From: Chloroflexota bacterium
Lineage (GTDB): Bacteria > Chloroflexota > Dormibacteria > Dormibacterales > Dormibacteraceae
Reading direction: 5' to 3'
DNA: 64,000 nucleotides
Assembly (NCBI GenBank): GCA_005880795.1
Contig: VBGP01000016.1
Location: forward strand, 1 to 64,000
This document shows, in pieces, positions 25,229 through 52,822 of this stretch (within the stretch, counting starts at the first letter, position 1; each line of letters opens with the position of its first letter). The position numbers and the translations under genes were made by a program. The notes beneath the pieces are model-generated. The model was not told where the DNA came from and searched no databases. It saw nothing but the letters and a program-made list of their open reading frames with translations.

Positions 25229-25693
25229 CTAGGAATCTGAATTCCGGCGCTCGCGAGCGCGCCGGATCGCGACCGGGAGAAGGGCATAGAGGTCCGCCCG
25301 GTCGACTGCTTTGCTCATGTAGCCGACGACGTCCGGGTCGTCGGTCCCTGAGGGGAACACGGGGTAGGCGGTGTAGAAGATGACAGGCACCTTCTGCCCG
25401 CGTGCCCGCAGCTCGTTGAGCAGGCCCCAGCCGTCCATCGGCTCCGGCAGCATCAGGTCGATGATCGCCACCTCCGGTTTGTCCGCCTGCGCCCGAACCA
25501 GCGCCTGGTCGGCGTCTTCGGCGATCGACACTTTGTAGCCAAGCATCTTCAGGTCGGTTTCGAGGATGACCCTCCACGCCCGTTCATCGTCGACGACCAG
25601 CACAGTTGACCCCTTCAACTCCTCGGGAGTGGGCGCGATTGGCTTGGGCGGGGTGAACGGCACCTGAATTCTGGCGCAGTATATCGGTGGCAA
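25229..25693 (-). CDS. Single-domain response regulator (receiver only)
   Basis: A protein of about 144-154 residues with a lone receiver domain: LVVDDERAW acidic pair, IIDLMLPEPMDGW with the phospho-acceptor Asp, a Thr in FYTAYPV, and a Lys in GYMSKAV. No output domain follows, so it may act by protein contact, as a phosphate sink, or within a phosphorelay. The possible starts are a TTG at 25693, which coincides with the start codon of the divergent kinase gene, and a GTG at 25663, which I favour slightly. It is head-to-head with the GAF histidine kinase, a likely partner. Confidence 0.88.
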   Translation of the reverse strand: MPPIYCARIQVPFTPPKPIAPTPEELKGSTVLVVDDERAWRVILETDLKMLGYKVSIAEDADQALVRAQADKPEVAIIDLMLPEPMDGWGLLNELRARGQKVPVIFYTAYPVFPSGTDDPDVVGYMSKAVDRADLYALLPVAIRRARERRNSDS

Positions 25694-28600
25694 TGGCGAC
25701 TTCCGCGCGTCGCAACACAGGACCGCACCGCTTACCGACCGGGATCAAGCGCTCTCCGGCTCGCCCGACCCCGGTTTCCAGGAAGCGCGTGGGAGGGAGC
25801 GCCGGCCCGTCGGTCAACGCCCTCGTCCATGAGCTGAGCACCTGCGTGACCGAGGCGGACCTCCTCCAGGTCCTCCACCGCGGCCTGCAGGGGAAGTTCG
25901 GCTACGACGCCATCAACCTGCAGATCCTCGAGCGTGAAGGCTGGTACCACTCGCTCGCCATGGACGCCGGCGTGCTCCAGGACGTACGAAGGCGACCGGT
26001 GCGTGAGTCGATGTACGTGCGCCAGTTCGCGAACCCGAAAAGCACCGTGATTCCGATCGAATCGCACGCTCGCCTCGAGATCGGCAAGGGCCCGGGCGTG
26101 CGGGTCCGCAGCAAGATGGCGATCTGGGTGCCGGTGAAGCACCAGGGCGAGCTCATCGGCAGCGTGATCTACCACACCTACCGCAAGCGTCGGGTTCCCA
26201 CCGGCGAGCTGGAGTTCCTGGAAGACGTGCACCGCAGGCTCGGCGTCCTGCTGGCGAACGCCTCTCTCAACGAGCTGACTCGCAACCAGGCTCGCCGCCT
26301 GGAGGCCCTGAACAGCATCGCGCGGGCCATGACCGCAACCCTGGACGAGACCAGCGTGCTCGCCGGGCTCTACGCCACCCTGCGCGAGCTGCTCCCGGTG
26401 GATTCGCTCGAGATGGTCACGTTGCAAGACGGGACCGACCGAGCCCGCTACCTGACCATGGAGGGCGAGGCGGCGCCCAGCGCGCGGTGGCTCGCGCCGC
26501 GTTCGGCCCTGGCGGCACCGGCGCGCAGCGTCGTGGCCGACAACAAGACCGTGCTGATCCACCACCCGCACTCCTCGCTCTGGGTACCCCTCAAAGAGGG
26601 CGGCGTGGCGCGGGGCGCGCTCGGCATCAAGTGCTCGCGCCCCTACGCATACGAAGACTCGACGGCGGCCTTCCTGGAGCTGGTTTCGGACGAGGTCACC
26701 CTCGCCATGCGCAACGCGCGCAGCTATGAGGCGATCGAGGACCAGCGCCGGCGGCTCGAGGTCGTCAACTCGATCGGCCGGCGCCTTGCCTCGAGCCTCG
26801 ACCGCTGGTCGATCATGCGCACCTTGCGCGAGGAGCTGGCGGCATTTCTGAGCTTCGACGGCTTCATCCTCGCGACGATCACGCAAACCGCGGAGGGACC
26901 GGTGGCCGAGGGCTACCAGTACGTGGGCGGCGTCGAGGAGGTCGTCCCCCCGGTTCCGCTCGCCATGACCGGCCCGTCCCGCGAGGCCTACGAGACCGGC
27001 AAGCCGGTCCTGGTCCGCAAGTCGCCGTGGGCCCGCTCGTTCGAAGGCAAGCAGCTCGAGCGCGAGGTCTGGACGATGGGCCAGGGCGCCGCGATCTTCG
27101 TTTCCGGCCCGCCCTCCGACCAGCGCCGGGTTTCCCGCTCCTTTGTCTGGGTCCCGGTCCTGAGCGGCGAGCAGATCACGGCGATGCTTTCGCTGCAGTC
27201 CTATACGGAGAGCGCGTTCGATGACTGGCACGTAAACCTGCTCCACGACGTCGCCGCGCATGTGAGCCTGGCCCTCGCCAACGCCGACCACTTCGCGCAG
27301 GCGCAGACAGAGCGGGCCCGCCTCGAAGCCCTGCACCTCCTCGACCTGGGCGTGGCCAGCGCCTCTGACGAGCGAGAGCTGGCCGAGGCGGTGTTCGCAG
27401 CCGCGTGCGACTACCTCGGCTCGACCCACATGGTGCTTGCCTACGTCGACGTGGGAGGCCTGGTCGCCGGGTTCACCGGGCAGCGAGATGAGCGCGCGGC
27501 GCCGATCGGTCCCATCGCCATCGACAGCGCGCCGTTCTTCCGCCGCATGATCGAAGGCGGCACCGACGTGATCGACGTCTCGGCAGATGACCCAGCCGAC
27601 CTCAGCGGACCTATCGGCAGCTATGTCTTCAGCCACGCGCCGAGTCATGTCGTCTGGGCGCCCATCACGCAAGACGATCGGGTCGTGGCGGGCGTGGTCG
27701 CGATGCGCAACGACGGCGGACGTTTCCAGGCCACCCACCTCAAGCTGCTCGAGACCGCAATGCCGGTGGTCGGTATCGCCCTCCGCACGATGCGGCTGCA
27801 TCACGCCAACGAGCTCGCCCTCGCCCAATCGGTGCGCATCCAGGAGCTCGCCGCGCTGGCCGGCCACGAGCTGATGAGCGTGGTCGCCAACATCGCTGAC
27901 CAGGCCCGGACGATGCTGGAGGCCGGCGGCTCCGTCTGCTGGGCGTTCGACACGGAAGGACGCGTGACGGCGACCCGCGGCAGCGGCGACGCCGCGGCGG
28001 AGGAGGTGCTCGGCTGGGCGAGCCTGAGCTCCGACGACCGCGTCGCGCCCGCCGGCATCGTCAGCGGCAAGGCGCACGACTACGCGTGGAACCTCATCCC
28101 GCTCTGGTACGGGGACCGCCTGGTCGGCGCGATCGGGGCGGTCCACGCGTCGGCGCTCGTCGCCGAGCCGAGCTCGGCCGCGCTGGACTTCGCCCGGCAC
28201 GCCGCAGTCGCGATCGAAAACGCTCGGCTCGTGGCCGAGACGCGAGGCCGAATTCGCACGCTGGAAGCTGTCGCGGCGTTCACCGACCTGACGCCAACCG
28301 AGCCCGATCGAGCCCGGTCCGAGATGGCCCACCTGGTGAGCCGCGCCCTGGCCGGCTCGCAGGGCGAGCTCTGGCTGCTCGAGGACGGTGAGCTCGTGCG
28401 GCGGTCCGACAACGGGGATCCCTCACCGAGGGTCCCGGTCACGGACAGCGCACAGCTGCTGCGCGCTCTGACCTCATCCGCCGGCGCCAGGCGCATGCGC
28501 GCCCTGCTCGACCTGCTGGGTTCGCCTCAGGACGCATTCGCGATTCCCGTCCAGGTCGAGGGTAGGCTTGCCGCGCTGCTTGTCGCGCGAATGACCGCCG

Positions 28601-29712
28601 GCCCCGCTGAGACGCGACGGTTGGCGGGCGTGCTGGCCGGCCAGGCCGCCGTGCTGCTTGGTCAGCTCGAGCTCGTCGATGCCCTGGACCGCGAGCGCCG
28701 GATGATGAACGCGATCCTGCGGCACTCGCCGGTCGGCGTGATGCTCGAGGATGCCGGCGGCCGGATCGTGTACGCCAACCCGGAGATCGAGGCCATCTAC
28801 AGCCTCCAGGCGTCCGAGATGCCGGGGCGCAAGCCCGACGAGGTCTTCGCCGCGGCTGGAGCAACGCCGGCCGACGAGGCAGATGCCGAAGGCACGATGG
28901 AGCTGCGCATGAAGGATCCCGACCGCACGGTCCATGTCCGCCGAGTCGTGATCCCAGGTCTCGAAGGGGAGCCTGCCGGCGTGCTGACGCTGCACGAGGA
29001 CGTGACCGCGCAGCGGCAGGCTCTCGAGGCCAAAGACCTGATGCTGCGTGCCATCGGACATGAGGTGAGAAGTCCCGCCGCGGCGATGAAGAACACGCTG
29101 GCCGGGATCATGCAGTGGGAGGACAGCATCGATGCCGACGGCCGTCGCTCGCTGCTCCAGGAAGCGTACGAATCCTCCGACCGCCTGCTCAGCCTGGTCG
29201 AGAGCCAGCTGATCATCGCCAAGCTGGAGACCAAACACTTCGAGCCGACTCCCGAGCCCGTAGACCTCACTTCGGCTCTCGCGGGCGTAGTCGCAGTGCT
29301 GACCCACCGCTACGCGGAACGGACATTGGCCGTGGAGGTCAACCTCCCCGAAGGGCTGCCCCAGGCCTTCTGCGAGCCCGCCCACCTCGGCCAGGTCCTG
29401 ACGAACCTGATCGGCAACGCGCTCGAGTACACGAGCGGGCCGGTGCAGGTCGAGGCGCGCCAGGTCCAGCGCGGCTGGCTCGAGATCACGGTCGCGGACA
29501 ACGGCCAGGGCCTGCCGGCAGGAACCCTCGACACGGTCTTCGAGAAGACAGGTCCGGCCGGCCGCAGCCGATCCCAGGGCGGGCTGGGGCTCGGCCTCTA
29601 TCTGTGCCGGCTCGTGGTGGAGCGCTCGTTCGGCGGCCGGATCTGGGTCGCCGCGAGCGACAAGCGCGGCACGACCTTCAGATTCACCGTTCCGGCCCGG
29701 ATTCGCACGTAG
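25693..29712 (+). CDS. Large soluble multi-GAF/PAS histidine kinase
   Basis: A kinase of about 1339 residues with no membrane segments. From the N terminus there are about six tandem GAF-like modules (roughly residues 28-200, 205-345, 355-540, 550-700, 715-855 and 860-1000). A PAS domain (about 1005-1110) and a kinase core follow. The H-box is IGHEVRSP (His near 1121), the N-box is LIGNALEYT (about 1240), then VADNGQGLP and GGLGLGLYLCRLVVE. The modules begin with repeated helices such as RLEALNSIARAMTATLD and RLEVVNSIGRRLASSLD, a linker pattern that passes signals along a stacked rod. Six sensors on one cytosolic kinase suggest integration of several small-molecule or redox cues. The ATG at 25693 or GTG at 25687 is the start. 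The flanking response regulators are likely targets. Confidence 0.9.
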   Translation: MATSARRNTGPHRLPTGIKRSPARPTPVSRKRVGGSAGPSVNALVHELSTCVTEADLLQVLHRGLQGKFGYDAINLQILEREGWYHSLAMDAGVLQDVRRRPVRESMYVRQFANPKSTVIPIESHARLEIGKGPGVRVRSKMAIWVPVKHQGELIGSVIYHTYRKRRVPTGELEFLEDVHRRLGVLLANASLNELTRNQARRLEALNSIARAMTATLDETSVLAGLYATLRELLPVDSLEMVTLQDGTDRARYLTMEGEAAPSARWLAPRSALAAPARSVVADNKTVLIHHPHSSLWVPLKEGGVARGALGIKCSRPYAYEDSTAAFLELVSDEVTLAMRNARSYEAIEDQRRRLEVVNSIGRRLASSLDRWSIMRTLREELAAFLSFDGFILATITQTAEGPVAEGYQYVGGVEEVVPPVPLAMTGPSREAYETGKPVLVRKSPWARSFEGKQLEREVWTMGQGAAIFVSGPPSDQRRVSRSFVWVPVLSGEQITAMLSLQSYTESAFDDWHVNLLHDVAAHVSLALANADHFAQAQTERARLEALHLLDLGVASASDERELAEAVFAAACDYLGSTHMVLAYVDVGGLVAGFTGQRDERAAPIGPIAIDSAPFFRRMIEGGTDVIDVSADDPADLSGPIGSYVFSHAPSHVVWAPITQDDRVVAGVVAMRNDGGRFQATHLKLLETAMPVVGIALRTMRLHHANELALAQSVRIQELAALAGHELMSVVANIADQARTMLEAGGSVCWAFDTEGRVTATRGSGDAAAEEVLGWASLSSDDRVAPAGIVSGKAHDYAWNLIPLWYGDRLVGAIGAVHASALVAEPSSAALDFARHAAVAIENARLVAETRGRIRTLEAVAAFTDLTPTEPDRARSEMAHLVSRALAGSQGELWLLEDGELVRRSDNGDPSPRVPVTDSAQLLRALTSSAGARRMRALLDLLGSPQDAFAIPVQVEGRLAALLVARMTAGPAETRRLAGVLAGQAAVLLGQLELVDALDRERRMMNAILRHSPVGVMLEDAGGRIVYANPEIEAIYSLQASEMPGRKPDEVFAAAGATPADEADAEGTMELRMKDPDRTVHVRRVVIPGLEGEPAGVLTLHEDVTAQRQALEAKDLMLRAIGHEVRSPAAAMKNTLAGIMQWEDSIDADGRRSLLQEAYESSDRLLSLVESQLIIAKLETKHFEPTPEPVDLTSALAGVVAVLTHRYAERTLAVEVNLPEGLPQAFCEPAHLGQVLTNLIGNALEYTSGPVQVEARQVQRGWLEITVADNGQGLPAGTLDTVFEKTGPAGRSRSQGGLGLGLYLCRLVVERSFGGRIWVAASDKRGTTFRFTVPARIRT

Positions 29713-48138: not shown

Positions 48139-51100
48139 ATGGCCGCACCGATAACAGCCGATGACCTCTATCGATTTCGCTGGATCGATCATGTTCGCCT
48201 GAGTTCGGACGGCGAGCGGGTCGCGTATCAGGTCGCGTGGGCCGACTCCAGCTCCAGGCAGAACCGCAGCCGCATAGTCGTGAGGCGCCTGCTCGATCCG
48301 GAACCCATCGAACCGACCGCCGGAGTGTTGCGCGACCACTCCCCGGAGTGGTCACCAGATGGCCGCAAGCTCGCTTTCGTCAGCCGGGTTGGCGCCGCCG
48401 ACCAGCTGTTCGTCGTCGACCTCACCGTGGGAGGTCCCGCTCAACAGCTGACGTCCGTGGCCGAAGGCGTGTCGAGGCCGCAGTGGTCACCCGACGGCGC
48501 GCGCCTCGCATTCGTCGGGGTGGTCGTCTCCGACCCCGACGCCGTGGTCGACGATCCCCGGCCACCCGAAGGTCGTGAGCAGCTCCGCCGGGCGCCGGTC
48601 GCCCGGGTGGTGCGCCGCCTCGATTACAAGCACGACGGTTACGGATACGTGGACGGCCGCTTCCACCACCTGTTCGCGGTGTCCTCGACCGGCGGCGACG
48701 CCAAGCAGCTGACGAACGGGACGTGGGACGTCGCCGACTTCGACTGGGCGCCGGACAGCACCCGGCTGGTCGTCGCCGGCAACGCAGAGCCAGGCGCCGA
48801 CCTGCAGCGTGAGCTGAACCTTTACGTGGTCGACCTCGAGGCGAACCGGGTGCGCCTGGGCGGCGGCTTCTTCCTGGGCTCGCCCATCTGGTCGCCCAAG
48901 GGAGACCAGATCGCTTTCATCGCCCCTAACGGGTTGGACGTCGGCCTGCTGGAGCGCGTTTGGATCGTGTCCCTGTCCGGCGGCGGGCCACGCTGCCTGA
49001 CGGCGAACTTCGACCTGGCCGTGAATGACAGCGTCATCAACGACATGCGGGCCGGGCATGCCACCAGGATCTGCTGGTCGGCGGAAGGCGACCGGATCTA
49101 CTTCGTCGCCAGCGGACCGGGCGTGACCGGGGTCCATTCGGTCGATCTCGAAGGCGACGTCCGCGAAGAGGTGGCCGGCCGCCGACGCATCTACGACTTC
49201 GACCTGGCGAACGGCGTGCTCGCCTTCTGCGCATCGGACACCAGCAACCCCGGCGAGCTGTTCATGCTGACCCACGGGGCCGAGGCGCGGATCACCGACC
49301 TCAACCCCTGGCTGCACGACCGGTACATCGCCGAGCCCGAGCAGCACCACTTCACGGCGCCCGACGGTTGGAAGCTCGAGGGCTGGGTGCTCAAGCCGCC
49401 GGATCACGACCCCAGCCGCCTGTACCCGGCCGTTATGGAGATCCACGGCGGCCCGCATGCCCAGTACGGCTGGACGTTCTTCCACGAGCTTCAGATCCTG
49501 GCCGGCCTGGGCTACGTCGTCTTCTATATGAACCCACGCGGCTCGGACGGCTACGGCGAGCGCTTCCGGCGGGACGTCGTGCGCGATTGGGCGGGCAAGG
49601 ATTACCTCGACCTGATGAGCTCGCTCGATCAGGTGATCGAGCGGACCGGTTACATCGACACCAACCGGCTTGGGGTGGGCGGCGGCTCATACGGCGGGTA
49701 CATGACCAACTGGATCATCGGCCAGACCAACCGCTTCTCTGCTGCGGTCGCCATGCGCTCGATCTCCAACCTGGTCAGCGAGTACTCCCAGCACGACATC
49801 GTGCTCTGGGGCGTGCTTCAGCTCGGCCCACCGCCGTGGCCGGATCTGGACGAGCTCTGGCGCCGATCGCCGATCCGCTACGTGCAGAACATCCGCACCC
49901 CGCTGCTCCTGACCGCCGGGGAGATGGACCTGCGGTGCGCCATGTCCCAGTCGGAGGAGATGTTCGGCGCGATGAGGCTGCTCGGCAAGACGGTCGAGCT
50001 GGTTCGGTTCCCCGAGGAGTCGCATGACCTTTCGCGCAACGGACGGCCCGACCGGCGCGTGGAGCGACTGCGGCGAATCGGCGGTTGGTACGAGCGATTC
50101 CTGGGCACGTCCTCGGTCGACCGGCCGGCGGCGGAGGAGGAAACGCAGGTGCTGCCCATCCCCGCCGAGGCTCCTCGCGAGTGGGCCAAGACGATCGCGA
50201 TCGAAACCCCGCCGCCCGACACCAAGCCGGTCGAGGAGCCGACGGCCCCGGCCGCGATCCTCGTCGAGGAGCCGGAGGTGATTCAGCCCACGGTTTCGGA
50301 GTTCGCAACCGCGGCCGCGCCCATCGTCGAGCCCGAAGCCCTGCCCGACCTGCCCGGGCCCGGCGGAGACGAAGAGCAAGAACCGATGCCTCAGGCCGAT
50401 GCGGAGGCGACGCCGGAGCCAGAGGGTGTGGTCGAGCCTGAGCCAGAGGCTGCGCCCGAACTTGAACCCGAAAACGAACCGGTGATTGCCAAAACCGAGC
50501 CCGCGCTGACCGCCTTCGATGAACCCGCCGACGAACTGGAGCCGACGCCTGAACGGGCGCCCGAAGCGGCGGCGGCCGAGCCGGTGCCCGAAGCCGAATC
50601 GCAGCCCGCCGTGGTGGCATCGGAACCCGAACCCGAACCTGCGCCCCAACCGGTGGTGGCGGAGCCGTCAACGCCCCTTCCGGAGCCAGTGCCCGCTTCA
50701 GAGGTACGCCCTCGCGCCGAGCGCGAGGCCCGGCCCACCCCCGACGTGAGCTCCACCCTCGTCGCCTGGCCCACGAACACCGCACCGGCCCCGCCAGGAA
50801 ATGGCGCCCCGGCCCAGGCCGGTTCGTTCGAGGAAGCCACCTCGGTCATCCCGGTCTGGCAGCAGACCGACCCGAACGCCGACTCGAAAAGGACGGTGTC
50901 GCTGCAGGCGATGCCGCCCGAAGAAGTCGCCTCGGGATCGGGCTTTGCCGCGCTGCTGACCTTCGAGTCAGGTCCGTTCGCCGGCCGCATCGTGGCCCTC
51001 CCAAGCCAGATGGTGAGCATCGGGCGAGCGCCGGACAATGACGTTGTGGTCGGAGATCCGGCCACGTCCGGGCACCACGGCCGCATCGAGGTGCGCACCG

Positions 51101-51237
51101 GCTCCTTCTGGATCAGCGACCTGGGCAGCACCAACGGCACCCTCGTCAACGGTGAGCCGGTGATCGAGAAACAGCTCTCGGACAACGACATGATCGCCAT
51201 CGGGCAGAACACGCTTCGCTTCACGCTCGAGGCTTAG
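48139..51237 (+). CDS. S9 prolyl-oligopeptidase-type peptidase fused to an FHA domain
   Basis: A 1032-residue protein. Residues 1-390 are TolB/WD40-like propeller blades (SPEWSPDGRKLAFVS, PQWSPDGARLAFVG). Residues 400-650 are an S9C-type alpha/beta hydrolase with Ser517 in GGGSYGGYM, Asp597 in GEMDLRCAMSQSE and His629 in EESHDLSRNG. Residues 660-930 are a Glu/Pro/Ala-rich low-complexity linker. The last 90 (about 945-1032) are a forkhead-associated domain with IGRAPDNDVVVGD, SGHHGRI and LGSTNGTLVNG. FHA domains bind phosphothreonine, so this peptidase may be recruited or controlled by a Ser/Thr kinase; none lies in the window. No signal peptide is seen, so it is probably cytosolic. Confidence 0.88.
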   Translation: MAAPITADDLYRFRWIDHVRLSSDGERVAYQVAWADSSSRQNRSRIVVRRLLDPEPIEPTAGVLRDHSPEWSPDGRKLAFVSRVGAADQLFVVDLTVGGPAQQLTSVAEGVSRPQWSPDGARLAFVGVVVSDPDAVVDDPRPPEGREQLRRAPVARVVRRLDYKHDGYGYVDGRFHHLFAVSSTGGDAKQLTNGTWDVADFDWAPDSTRLVVAGNAEPGADLQRELNLYVVDLEANRVRLGGGFFLGSPIWSPKGDQIAFIAPNGLDVGLLERVWIVSLSGGGPRCLTANFDLAVNDSVINDMRAGHATRICWSAEGDRIYFVASGPGVTGVHSVDLEGDVREEVAGRRRIYDFDLANGVLAFCASDTSNPGELFMLTHGAEARITDLNPWLHDRYIAEPEQHHFTAPDGWKLEGWVLKPPDHDPSRLYPAVMEIHGGPHAQYGWTFFHELQILAGLGYVVFYMNPRGSDGYGERFRRDVVRDWAGKDYLDLMSSLDQVIERTGYIDTNRLGVGGGSYGGYMTNWIIGQTNRFSAAVAMRSISNLVSEYSQHDIVLWGVLQLGPPPWPDLDELWRRSPIRYVQNIRTPLLLTAGEMDLRCAMSQSEEMFGAMRLLGKTVELVRFPEESHDLSRNGRPDRRVERLRRIGGWYERFLGTSSVDRPAAEEETQVLPIPAEAPREWAKTIAIETPPPDTKPVEEPTAPAAILVEEPEVIQPTVSEFATAAAPIVEPEALPDLPGPGGDEEQEPMPQADAEATPEPEGVVEPEPEAAPELEPENEPVIAKTEPALTAFDEPADELEPTPERAPEAAAAEPVPEAESQPAVVASEPEPEPAPQPVVAEPSTPLPEPVPASEVRPRAEREARPTPDVSSTLVAWPTNTAPAPPGNGAPAQAGSFEEATSVIPVWQQTDPNADSKRTVSLQAMPPEEVASGSGFAALLTFESGPFAGRIVALPSQMVSIGRAPDNDVVVGDPATSGHHGRIEVRTGSFWISDLGSTNGTLVNGEPVIEKQLSDNDMIAIGQNTLRFTLEA

Positions 51238-51965: not shown

Positions 51966-52388
51966 ATGGGGGTCAGCGCTTTCTCCGACGAGTGGGCGAA
52001 GCAGTTCAAGGACGAGGTCAACCGGTCCAGCACCTACCAGTCCGCAGCCAAGGGGTGGAAATGGACGGTCGGGCTCGTCGTCGAGGCGGAGCCGGACAAG
52101 AACTTTCCAGAGTCGAAGGGCGTCGTGATGGACCTGTTCGACGGCTCGGCCCGCGACATCAAAGTGGGCGCCGCCGCGGATGCCCAGAAGTGCGACTTCG
52201 TCATCACGGCGCCCTACACGCGCTGGAAGCAGGTGGCGACCAAGGAGCTCGACGCGACCAAGGGAATCCTGCAGGGCAAGCTGAAGCTGAAGGGGGACCT
52301 GCCGACCATCGTGCGCTACACCAAGGCGTCGCAAGAGATGACGGAGTGCACGACGCGGATCCCGGTTGAATGGCCCGACGAAAAATAG
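51966..52388 (+). CDS. SCP2 sterol-transfer-domain protein
   Basis: A 140-residue protein resembling the SCP2 sterol-binding fold: FSDEWAKQFKDEVNRSSTYQSAAKGW, then a beta-sheet with VVMDLFDGSARDIKVG, DFVITAPYTRWKQVA and the ILQGKLKLKGDLPTIVRYTKASQEM helix. These proteins bind lipids or acyl chains in the cytosol. A strong ribosome-binding site (AGGAGG) precedes ATG 51966. It overlaps the next gene's possible start. Confidence 0.82.
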   Translation: MGVSAFSDEWAKQFKDEVNRSSTYQSAAKGWKWTVGLVVEAEPDKNFPESKGVVMDLFDGSARDIKVGAAADAQKCDFVITAPYTRWKQVATKELDATKGILQGKLKLKGDLPTIVRYTKASQEMTECTTRIPVEWPDEK

Positions 52389-52822
52389 AAACCAAAAGGA
52401 TGTCTAGAGCGGTCGACTACGCTGATCCGGAGCCAAGCGCGTTTGCGTCGATGCTTGGTGGCCTGATCGACGCAAACGTCGAAAACAGTCCCGCGAAGCG
52501 AAAGGACTTCGATGACCTTGCCGCTCGAGTCGGTATCTGGGTCACCGATATCGACGAGGGCGTGACGCTCGAGTTTCAGCGTGGTTCGCTGCTGGTCCAC
52601 AACGGACTGAAGCCGAAGCGTGACATCACCATTCGCGCTGAGGCAGAGACCGTGATGAACCTGAGCAACCTGCGGATCGGCCTGTTCGGCATGCCGGTCT
52701 ATTACGACGAGGTGGGGCGCGGAGTTGCCGCGAAGCTGGTGCAGGGCAAGCTTCGGATCGATGGCATGCTGGGCAACATCGCGACTGTGAACACCGTGAC
52801 GCGAATCTTTTCGGTCAGATGA
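52370..52822 (+). CDS. SCP2-like lipid-binding protein
   Basis: A 140- to 150-residue protein with an SCP2-like layout: LEFQRGSLLVHNGLKPKRDITIRAEAETVMNLSNL, then AKLVQGKLRIDGMLGNIATVNTVTRIF. The pattern of a beta-sheet followed by a GKL-type helix parallels the preceding gene, so the pair may be paralogues. Start ATG 52370 overlaps the previous gene by 19 bp; ATG 52400 is the alternative. The stop overlaps the 3-hydroxyacyl-CoA dehydrogenase start, suggesting a lipid or acyl-CoA role. Confidence 0.72.
   Translation: MARRKIETKRMSRAVDYADPEPSAFASMLGGLIDANVENSPAKRKDFDDLAARVGIWVTDIDEGVTLEFQRGSLLVHNGLKPKRDITIRAEAETVMNLSNLRIGLFGMPVYYDEVGRGVAAKLVQGKLRIDGMLGNIATVNTVTRIFSVR

Follow-up and report, generated by a model that had tools for sequence, protein, structure and literature searches.

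Bacterial FHA switches are known from metabolism, secretion, cell-wall assembly and second-messenger control. GarA and OdhI, the actinobacterial regulators of 2-oxoglutarate dehydrogenase, are small stand-alone proteins with no joined enzyme, in which the FHA domain is preceded, at a distance of a few tens of residues, by a threonine motif; in both, as in Bdellovibrio DgcB, the threonine of a flexible tail is bound by the FHA domain as its own ligand (PMC6733907). The self-ligands of OdhI, GarA and DgcB carry a Glu at position -2, a Ser at +1 and hydrophobic residues at -3, +2 and +3. DgcB holds its enzyme and its FHA domain in one chain (FHA-GGDEF), and the FHA domain binds an EKTSIV tail (PMC6733907). 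An FHA-joined serine protease, the FHA-FHA-trypsin protein NP_811686.1 of Bacteroides thetaiotaomicron, appears as a single record in a survey (PMC2605481). S9 carboxypeptidases and acyl-peptide hydrolases (8wt1 from Geobacillus, 5yzm from Deinococcus and 7ep9 from Fusobacterium) for their part consist of a propeller and an alpha/beta-hydrolase domain with a catalytic triad, and stop at the end of the catalytic domain.

The protein analyzed here has the same propeller, hydrolase domain and triad as these enzymes (TM-score about 0.9 by target length) but, unlike them, continues into a linker and an FHA domain. It resembles GarA and OdhI in the position of a threonine motif and differs from them in being joined to an enzyme. 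With DgcB it has in common an enzyme and an FHA domain in one chain, although the enzyme and the domain order are different and the linker of DgcB is short, whereas NP_811686.1 belongs to the unrelated protease family S1 and has its FHA domains at the N-terminus. Neither S9 peptidases nor FHA switches are new in themselves; we found no description of an S9-FHA protein in the open-access literature searched, and the main text of a survey of prokaryotic POP architectures makes no mention of FHA. The original prediction, made from the DNA letters alone, had called the peptidase-FHA pairing unfamiliar, and among the genomes examined it occurs in a single bacterial family only. Neither the literature searched nor NCBIfam, of which no equivalog passed its own cut-off, offered a named or common family to which the fusion could belong.

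Architecture of the peptidase-FHA protein

The gene lies in a stretch of 64,000 nucleotides of contig VBGP01000016.1 (the window) and is one open reading frame from ATG to stop with no internal stop codon (Table 1). A TolB-like propeller, a complete S9 triad, a linker and an FHA domain had been predicted in this single frame, and Pfam, alignment and structure modelling together bear them out. In a domain search of residues 1-1032, PD40 (best repeat at residues 65-92), Peptidase_S9 and FHA all scored far above the Pfam cut-offs. The full-length model is ordered at residues 1-665 and about 925-1032, and the stretch in between (667-923) has a pLDDT below 50. A disordered stretch is therefore present where a linker of about 270 residues had been proposed, but residues 870-936 form a conserved module with the FHA domain and are not mere linker. 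Neither a promoter nor a terminator consensus was conspicuous, and PADLOC returned no match to an anti-phage system. The fusion is probably cytoplasmic, because no N-terminal signal peptide is evident by eye and because of its FHA/kinase context.

Table 1. Positions in the window of the fusion gene, its domains, catalytic codons and threonine motifs.
Feature	Positions	Strand	Basis or remark
S9 peptidase-linker-Thr motifs-FHA fusion	48139..51237	+	1032 aa; same fusion in 23 genomes
N-terminal beta-propeller (PD40/TolB-like), residues ~1-395	48139..49323	+	Pfam PD40 and DPPIV_N; modelled strands; 8wt1 match over 8-655
Peptidase_S9 catalytic domain, residues 445-656	49471..50106	+	Pfam 1e-48; Foldseek 8wt1
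Catalytic Ser517 codon (GGSYGG)	49687..49689	+	aligned with mutated Ser of 5yzo; 100% conserved
Catalytic Asp597 codon	49927..49929	+	alignment to solved S9 enzymes; 100% conserved
Catalytic His629 codon	50023..50025	+	alignment to solved S9 enzymes; 100% conserved
Glu/Pro/Ala-rich linker, residues 658-866	50110..50736	+	length and sequence variable; disordered in model
EETQVLPIP motif (T669), linker start	50134..50160	+	in most, not all, fusion proteins; T669 in 86% of 21
Thr motif 1, SSTLVAWP (T873)	50749..50772	+	T873 invariant; FhaB-like counterpart AATMVAPPP
Thr motif 2, FEEATSVIPVW (T901)	50827..50859	+	T901 invariant; candidate FHA self-ligand; OdhI/GarA/DgcB tail pattern (PMC6733907)
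Thr motif 3, KRTVSLQAMPP (T919)	50887..50919	+	T919 invariant; alignment, conservation
FHA domain, residues 937-1032 (Pfam core 959-1022)	50947..51234	+	Pfam; Foldseek; dN/dS

Residues 8-655 match the Geobacillus S9 carboxypeptidase 8wt1 with an E-value of 9e-126, and also Deinococcus 5yzm; superposition of the modelled peptidase on 8wt1 gave a TM-score of 0.91 by target length (Foldseek). The predicted triad of S517, D597 and H629 aligns with the triads of 8wt1 and 5yzm, and each residue is conserved in all 21 fusion proteins compared. In 5yzo, an S514A mutant chain of the Deinococcus enzyme, the Ala sits at the position of S517. The Ser-Asp-His order and the alpha/beta-hydrolase domain following a beta-propeller are those of peptidase family S9, and the enzyme is best explained, by its likeness in fold and sequence to 8wt1, 5yzm and 7ep9, as one of the S9 carboxypeptidase/acyl-peptide hydrolase type, with an active site that is intact by sequence. 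Two more specific assignments were rejected, NCBIfam Dpp5 (NF053518; 245 bits against a curated cut-off of 900) and the Atxe2 lasso peptide isopeptidase (NF033523; 130.9 bits against 400).

At the C-terminus, the FHA match over residues 959-1022 has an E-value of 2.7e-18 and a score of 66.6 bits against a cut-off of 20.7. The predicted GR, SGHH and STNG elements are there: G962-R963, S977..H980 and S997-T998-N999-G1000, the phosphothreonine signature (GR, SxxH, NG) of the FHA beta-sandwich, are 100% conserved in the 21 fusion proteins, and by sequence the pocket is intact. The domain, placed at 940-1032 by the original prediction, is complete, but it starts near residue 937. A separate model of residues 860-1032 matches GarA/OdhI with a TM-score of up to 0.94 by target length (Foldseek). 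These are the closest solved FHA domains, and the Foldseek matches include complexes with 2-oxoglutarate dehydrogenase (PDB 6i2q, 8p5r and 8p5x). Membership of the OdhI/GarA family (NF041660) was nevertheless rejected, the score being 59.2 bits against a curated cut-off of 200 and the 1032-aa fusion not being a small stand-alone protein, and so was FhaB/FipA (NF049868; 70.8 bits against 125).

The likeness to GarA and OdhI bears on what the FHA domain binds. The GarA/OdhI FHA domain binds 2-oxoglutarate dehydrogenase in its unphosphorylated form, and such phosphate-free partner binding means that a phospho-ligand is not certain for the fusion. The FHA domain might then be a phospho-independent scaffold holding the peptidase on a fixed partner or metabolic complex, with phosphorylation serving only for release, and the solved complexes of its nearest relatives with 2-oxoglutarate dehydrogenase would suit such a role. 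All residues of the phosphothreonine pocket are however invariant, a degree of conservation not called for in a scaffold that works wholly without phosphate, and we consider this explanation rather doubtful.

Distribution and origin of the fusion

The same fusion, which the original prediction had proposed to look for in related genomes, was found with conserved gene order as a single uninterrupted frame in 23 genomes, all from one family of soil bacteria of the candidate phylum Dormibacterota (genera g1, g2, g3, g4, g7 and g11), a count that includes L006, with a frameshift inside the FHA domain and the same alignment figures as L033, and L025, which is cut by a contig end. Identity of the fusion module between these genomes is 53-90%. 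Several further fusion loci are broken solely by contig ends, and in genus g9 the peptidase piece is found at one contig end and the FHA piece at another. The search covered 110 genomes of the class, NCBI listing one named class in the phylum. Outside the family, an FHA domain in frame with S9 was found in none of 65 S9 relatives among the best 80 genome_contigs loci, which cover one S9 subfamily. Damaged frames were seen at two loci: at L033:4348-8166 the fusion frame exits the FHA domain and continues into the MOSC gene, and at L046:5782-9894 the fusion gene is split over three frames. Each may be an assembly error or a pseudogene.

Sister genera g5, g10, g12, g13 and g14 have the same peptidase gene at the same locus without an FHA domain, the protein ending 13-24 residues past the catalytic domain. 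In g6 and g8, for which the C-terminal part of the gene is available, it ends 27 and 19 residues past that domain. The locus has a molybdopterin oxidoreductase gene upstream of the peptidase gene and, where the contig reaches, SCP2, 3-hydroxyacyl-CoA dehydrogenase-like and methylmalonyl-CoA mutase genes downstream. In the window, two overlapping tandem SCP2-like genes (51966-52822) lie between the MOSC and the hydroxyacyl-CoA dehydrogenase-like genes, an arrangement kept in many relatives. In the tree of the peptidase part the fusion proteins all group together in a single clade (SH-aLRT 98), and one state change is enough. Since there is a single fusion clade and the same locus occurs in sister genera without the FHA domain, the tree and gene order indicate that a peptidase gene passed on by vertical descent acquired the FHA part a single time.

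Selection on the parts of the protein was estimated from pairwise NG86 dN/dS values against 21 relatives. These were 0.02-0.26 and mostly below 0.13 for the FHA domain, 0.03-0.20 for the catalytic domain, 0.07-0.29 for the propeller and 0.15-0.41 for the linker, the FHA values lying mostly below those of the peptidase part. By this measure purifying selection on the FHA domain is strong, and with values this low (0.02-0.26) it is no passenger. A chimeric assembly or a frameshift, by which the original prediction could have failed, was rejected, because both domains are held by one open frame in 23 genomes. The damaged frames at L033 and L046 do illustrate that errors occur in such metagenome assemblies, and neighbouring genes might be joined by chance; but given the identity range, the constant gene order and the purifying selection seen both before and after the junction, the probability of an artefact is practically negligible.

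Threonine motifs and their FhaB-like counterpart

The genome has two FHA domains only, that of the peptidase fusion and that of an FhaB-like protein (P0002, contig C152). The gene of the latter is a 529-codon frame directly upstream of a PP2C gene, a layout which we take to resemble that of actinobacterial FhaB adjoining PstP. Its product carries a hydrophobic segment at the N-terminus and the FHA domain at the C-terminus, with a long linker between them. This FhaB/FipA-like membrane protein has three threonine motifs and the FHA domain in common with the fusion, with 50% identity over 112 residues; the pairs, fusion first, are SSTLVAWP and AATMVAPPP, EEATSVIPVW and EPTTLMPAW, and KRTVSLQAMPP and PDTMAMPTRPP. 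Where the fusion has the peptidase, the FhaB-like protein has its hydrophobic N-terminus and a long Pro/Ala/Trp linker. As compared by alignment, the unit gained by the peptidase is larger than an FHA domain and comprises the three conserved threonine motifs together with it, homologous to the FhaB-like tail. That both elements occur in the two proteins speaks for the fusion tail being a captured copy of the FhaB-like C-terminal module. The FhaB-like protein is older than the fusion, because it occurs also in genera without it. In a short FHA tree, where one fusion (row L121) was entered as FhaB-like, the fused FHA domains did not form one clade, and a single clade was not rejected (AU p = 0.30).

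The presence of the same module in both proteins of a genome with so few FHA domains would also suit a decoy or sink, in which the tail motifs and FHA domain mainly draw kinases away from the FhaB-like protein, the peptidase activity being just carried along. This is very improbable, given that the active site is strictly conserved and that the catalytic part has low dN/dS values.

T873, T901 and T919 are invariant among the 21 fusion proteins compared, and T901 and W907 are invariant across 42 aligned fusion and FhaB-like sequences amid an otherwise variable linker. The sequence F-E-E-A-T901-S-V-I fits the self-ligand pattern at -2, +1, +2 and +3, with a hydrophobic residue at -4 and not at -3. 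GarA and OdhI have two adjacent threonines in the tail, whereas the fusion has one (A900-T901). The NCBIfam OdhI model aligns from residue 901 onward, with a score below the family cut-off, and the tail around T901 is disordered in AlphaFold models, which therefore speak neither for nor against its docking. The fusion has the sequence features of FHA proteins that bind their own phospho-tail, namely EEATSVI, an invariant T901 and an FHA domain starting at about residue 937. The well-conserved positions of the linker show no significant excess of threonine (p = 0.29), so the argument for T901 is one of motif and invariance, not of counts. By analogy with GarA, OdhI and DgcB, T901 may be phosphorylated and serve as self-ligand of the FHA domain.

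Kinases, phosphatase and possible function

Seven Pkinase matches were found in the genome, two of them contig-end fragments; as judged from these and the PP2C gene, it encodes Hanks-type kinases and a PP2C phosphatase. A membrane Ser/Thr kinase (L117:436-2580) has the sequence TMVMAPP between its kinase domain and TM segment, kept in most orthologues in variable surroundings, and the C-terminal sequence of the PP2C (L122:9944-10720, contig C152) is TKTAVLPKLKI, which is kept throughout the genus and also outside it. To the eye, both resemble the threonine motifs that the peptidase shares with the FhaB-like protein, a likeness that we treat as a lead only.

As a whole, we give a probability of about one half to the following explanation. 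A cytoplasmic S9 peptidase would have gained, once in a Dormibacterota family, the FhaB-like C-terminal module on a long disordered tether. The fused FHA domain would bind phosphothreonine and, in its open state, attach the peptidase to a partner that is phosphorylated. The most likely partners are the Hanks-type kinases, the membrane-bound FhaB-like protein and the PP2C, with their similar threonine motifs. Phosphorylation of T901 by a kinase would fold the tail into the FHA groove as in GarA/OdhI and close the dock, so that the place in which the peptidase acts, or the complex that it joins, would depend on the balance of kinase and PP2C.

The original prediction had gone further and suggested phosphothreonine-controlled peptide cleavage. 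Its first half, control through phosphothreonine, is plausible in view of the intact pocket, the GarA/OdhI/DgcB-like motif, the kinases and the PP2C. Control of cleavage itself exceeds the evidence, as the disordered linker makes an effect on docking or location at least as likely. In direct gating, an FHA-bound phosphothreonine (T901 or that of a partner) would alter the propeller/hydrolase opening or the oligomeric state and thereby switch cleavage; the T901 motif with an intact FHA domain would allow this, and in DgcB an FHA/phospho-tail pair does control the covalently joined GGDEF enzyme (PMC6733907). In the fusion, however, the two domains are separated by the disordered stretch, and the sister-genus peptidases from the same gene need no FHA domain. 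We therefore regard direct gating as unlikely; with a tether of about 270 residues, disordered in the model and variable in length between species, control of docking and localization is the more likely of the two. A wider statement, which we put forward tentatively, is that an S9 exopeptidase may be switched between docked and free, or active and inactive, forms by an FHA domain and phospho-tail captured from an FhaB-type protein, and so be wired into Hanks-kinase signalling.

If the docking explanation is true, the stable, single-origin capture of a switch by a cytoplasmic peptidase links Ser/Thr kinase signalling to peptide turnover, and kinase control of cytoplasmic peptide processing would be a form not described so far. 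Because the FHA domains of the fusion and the FhaB-like protein are the only two of the genome, the phospho-signalling network appears small enough to be mapped completely from few proteins.

Three further observations concern signalling genes. The PP2C beside the FhaB-like gene has in most relatives a conserved VTKTAVLPKLKI tail, possibly a phosphorylation or FHA-docking motif. One frame at L116:1360-3309 encodes a kinase of the Hanks type together with a response-regulator receiver and an HD (HD-GYP-like) domain, and thus a Ser/Thr kinase joined to what may be a cyclic-di-GMP hydrolase. Finally, positions 25687-29712 of the window encode a large histidine kinase of 1341 aa with GAF and PAS domains.
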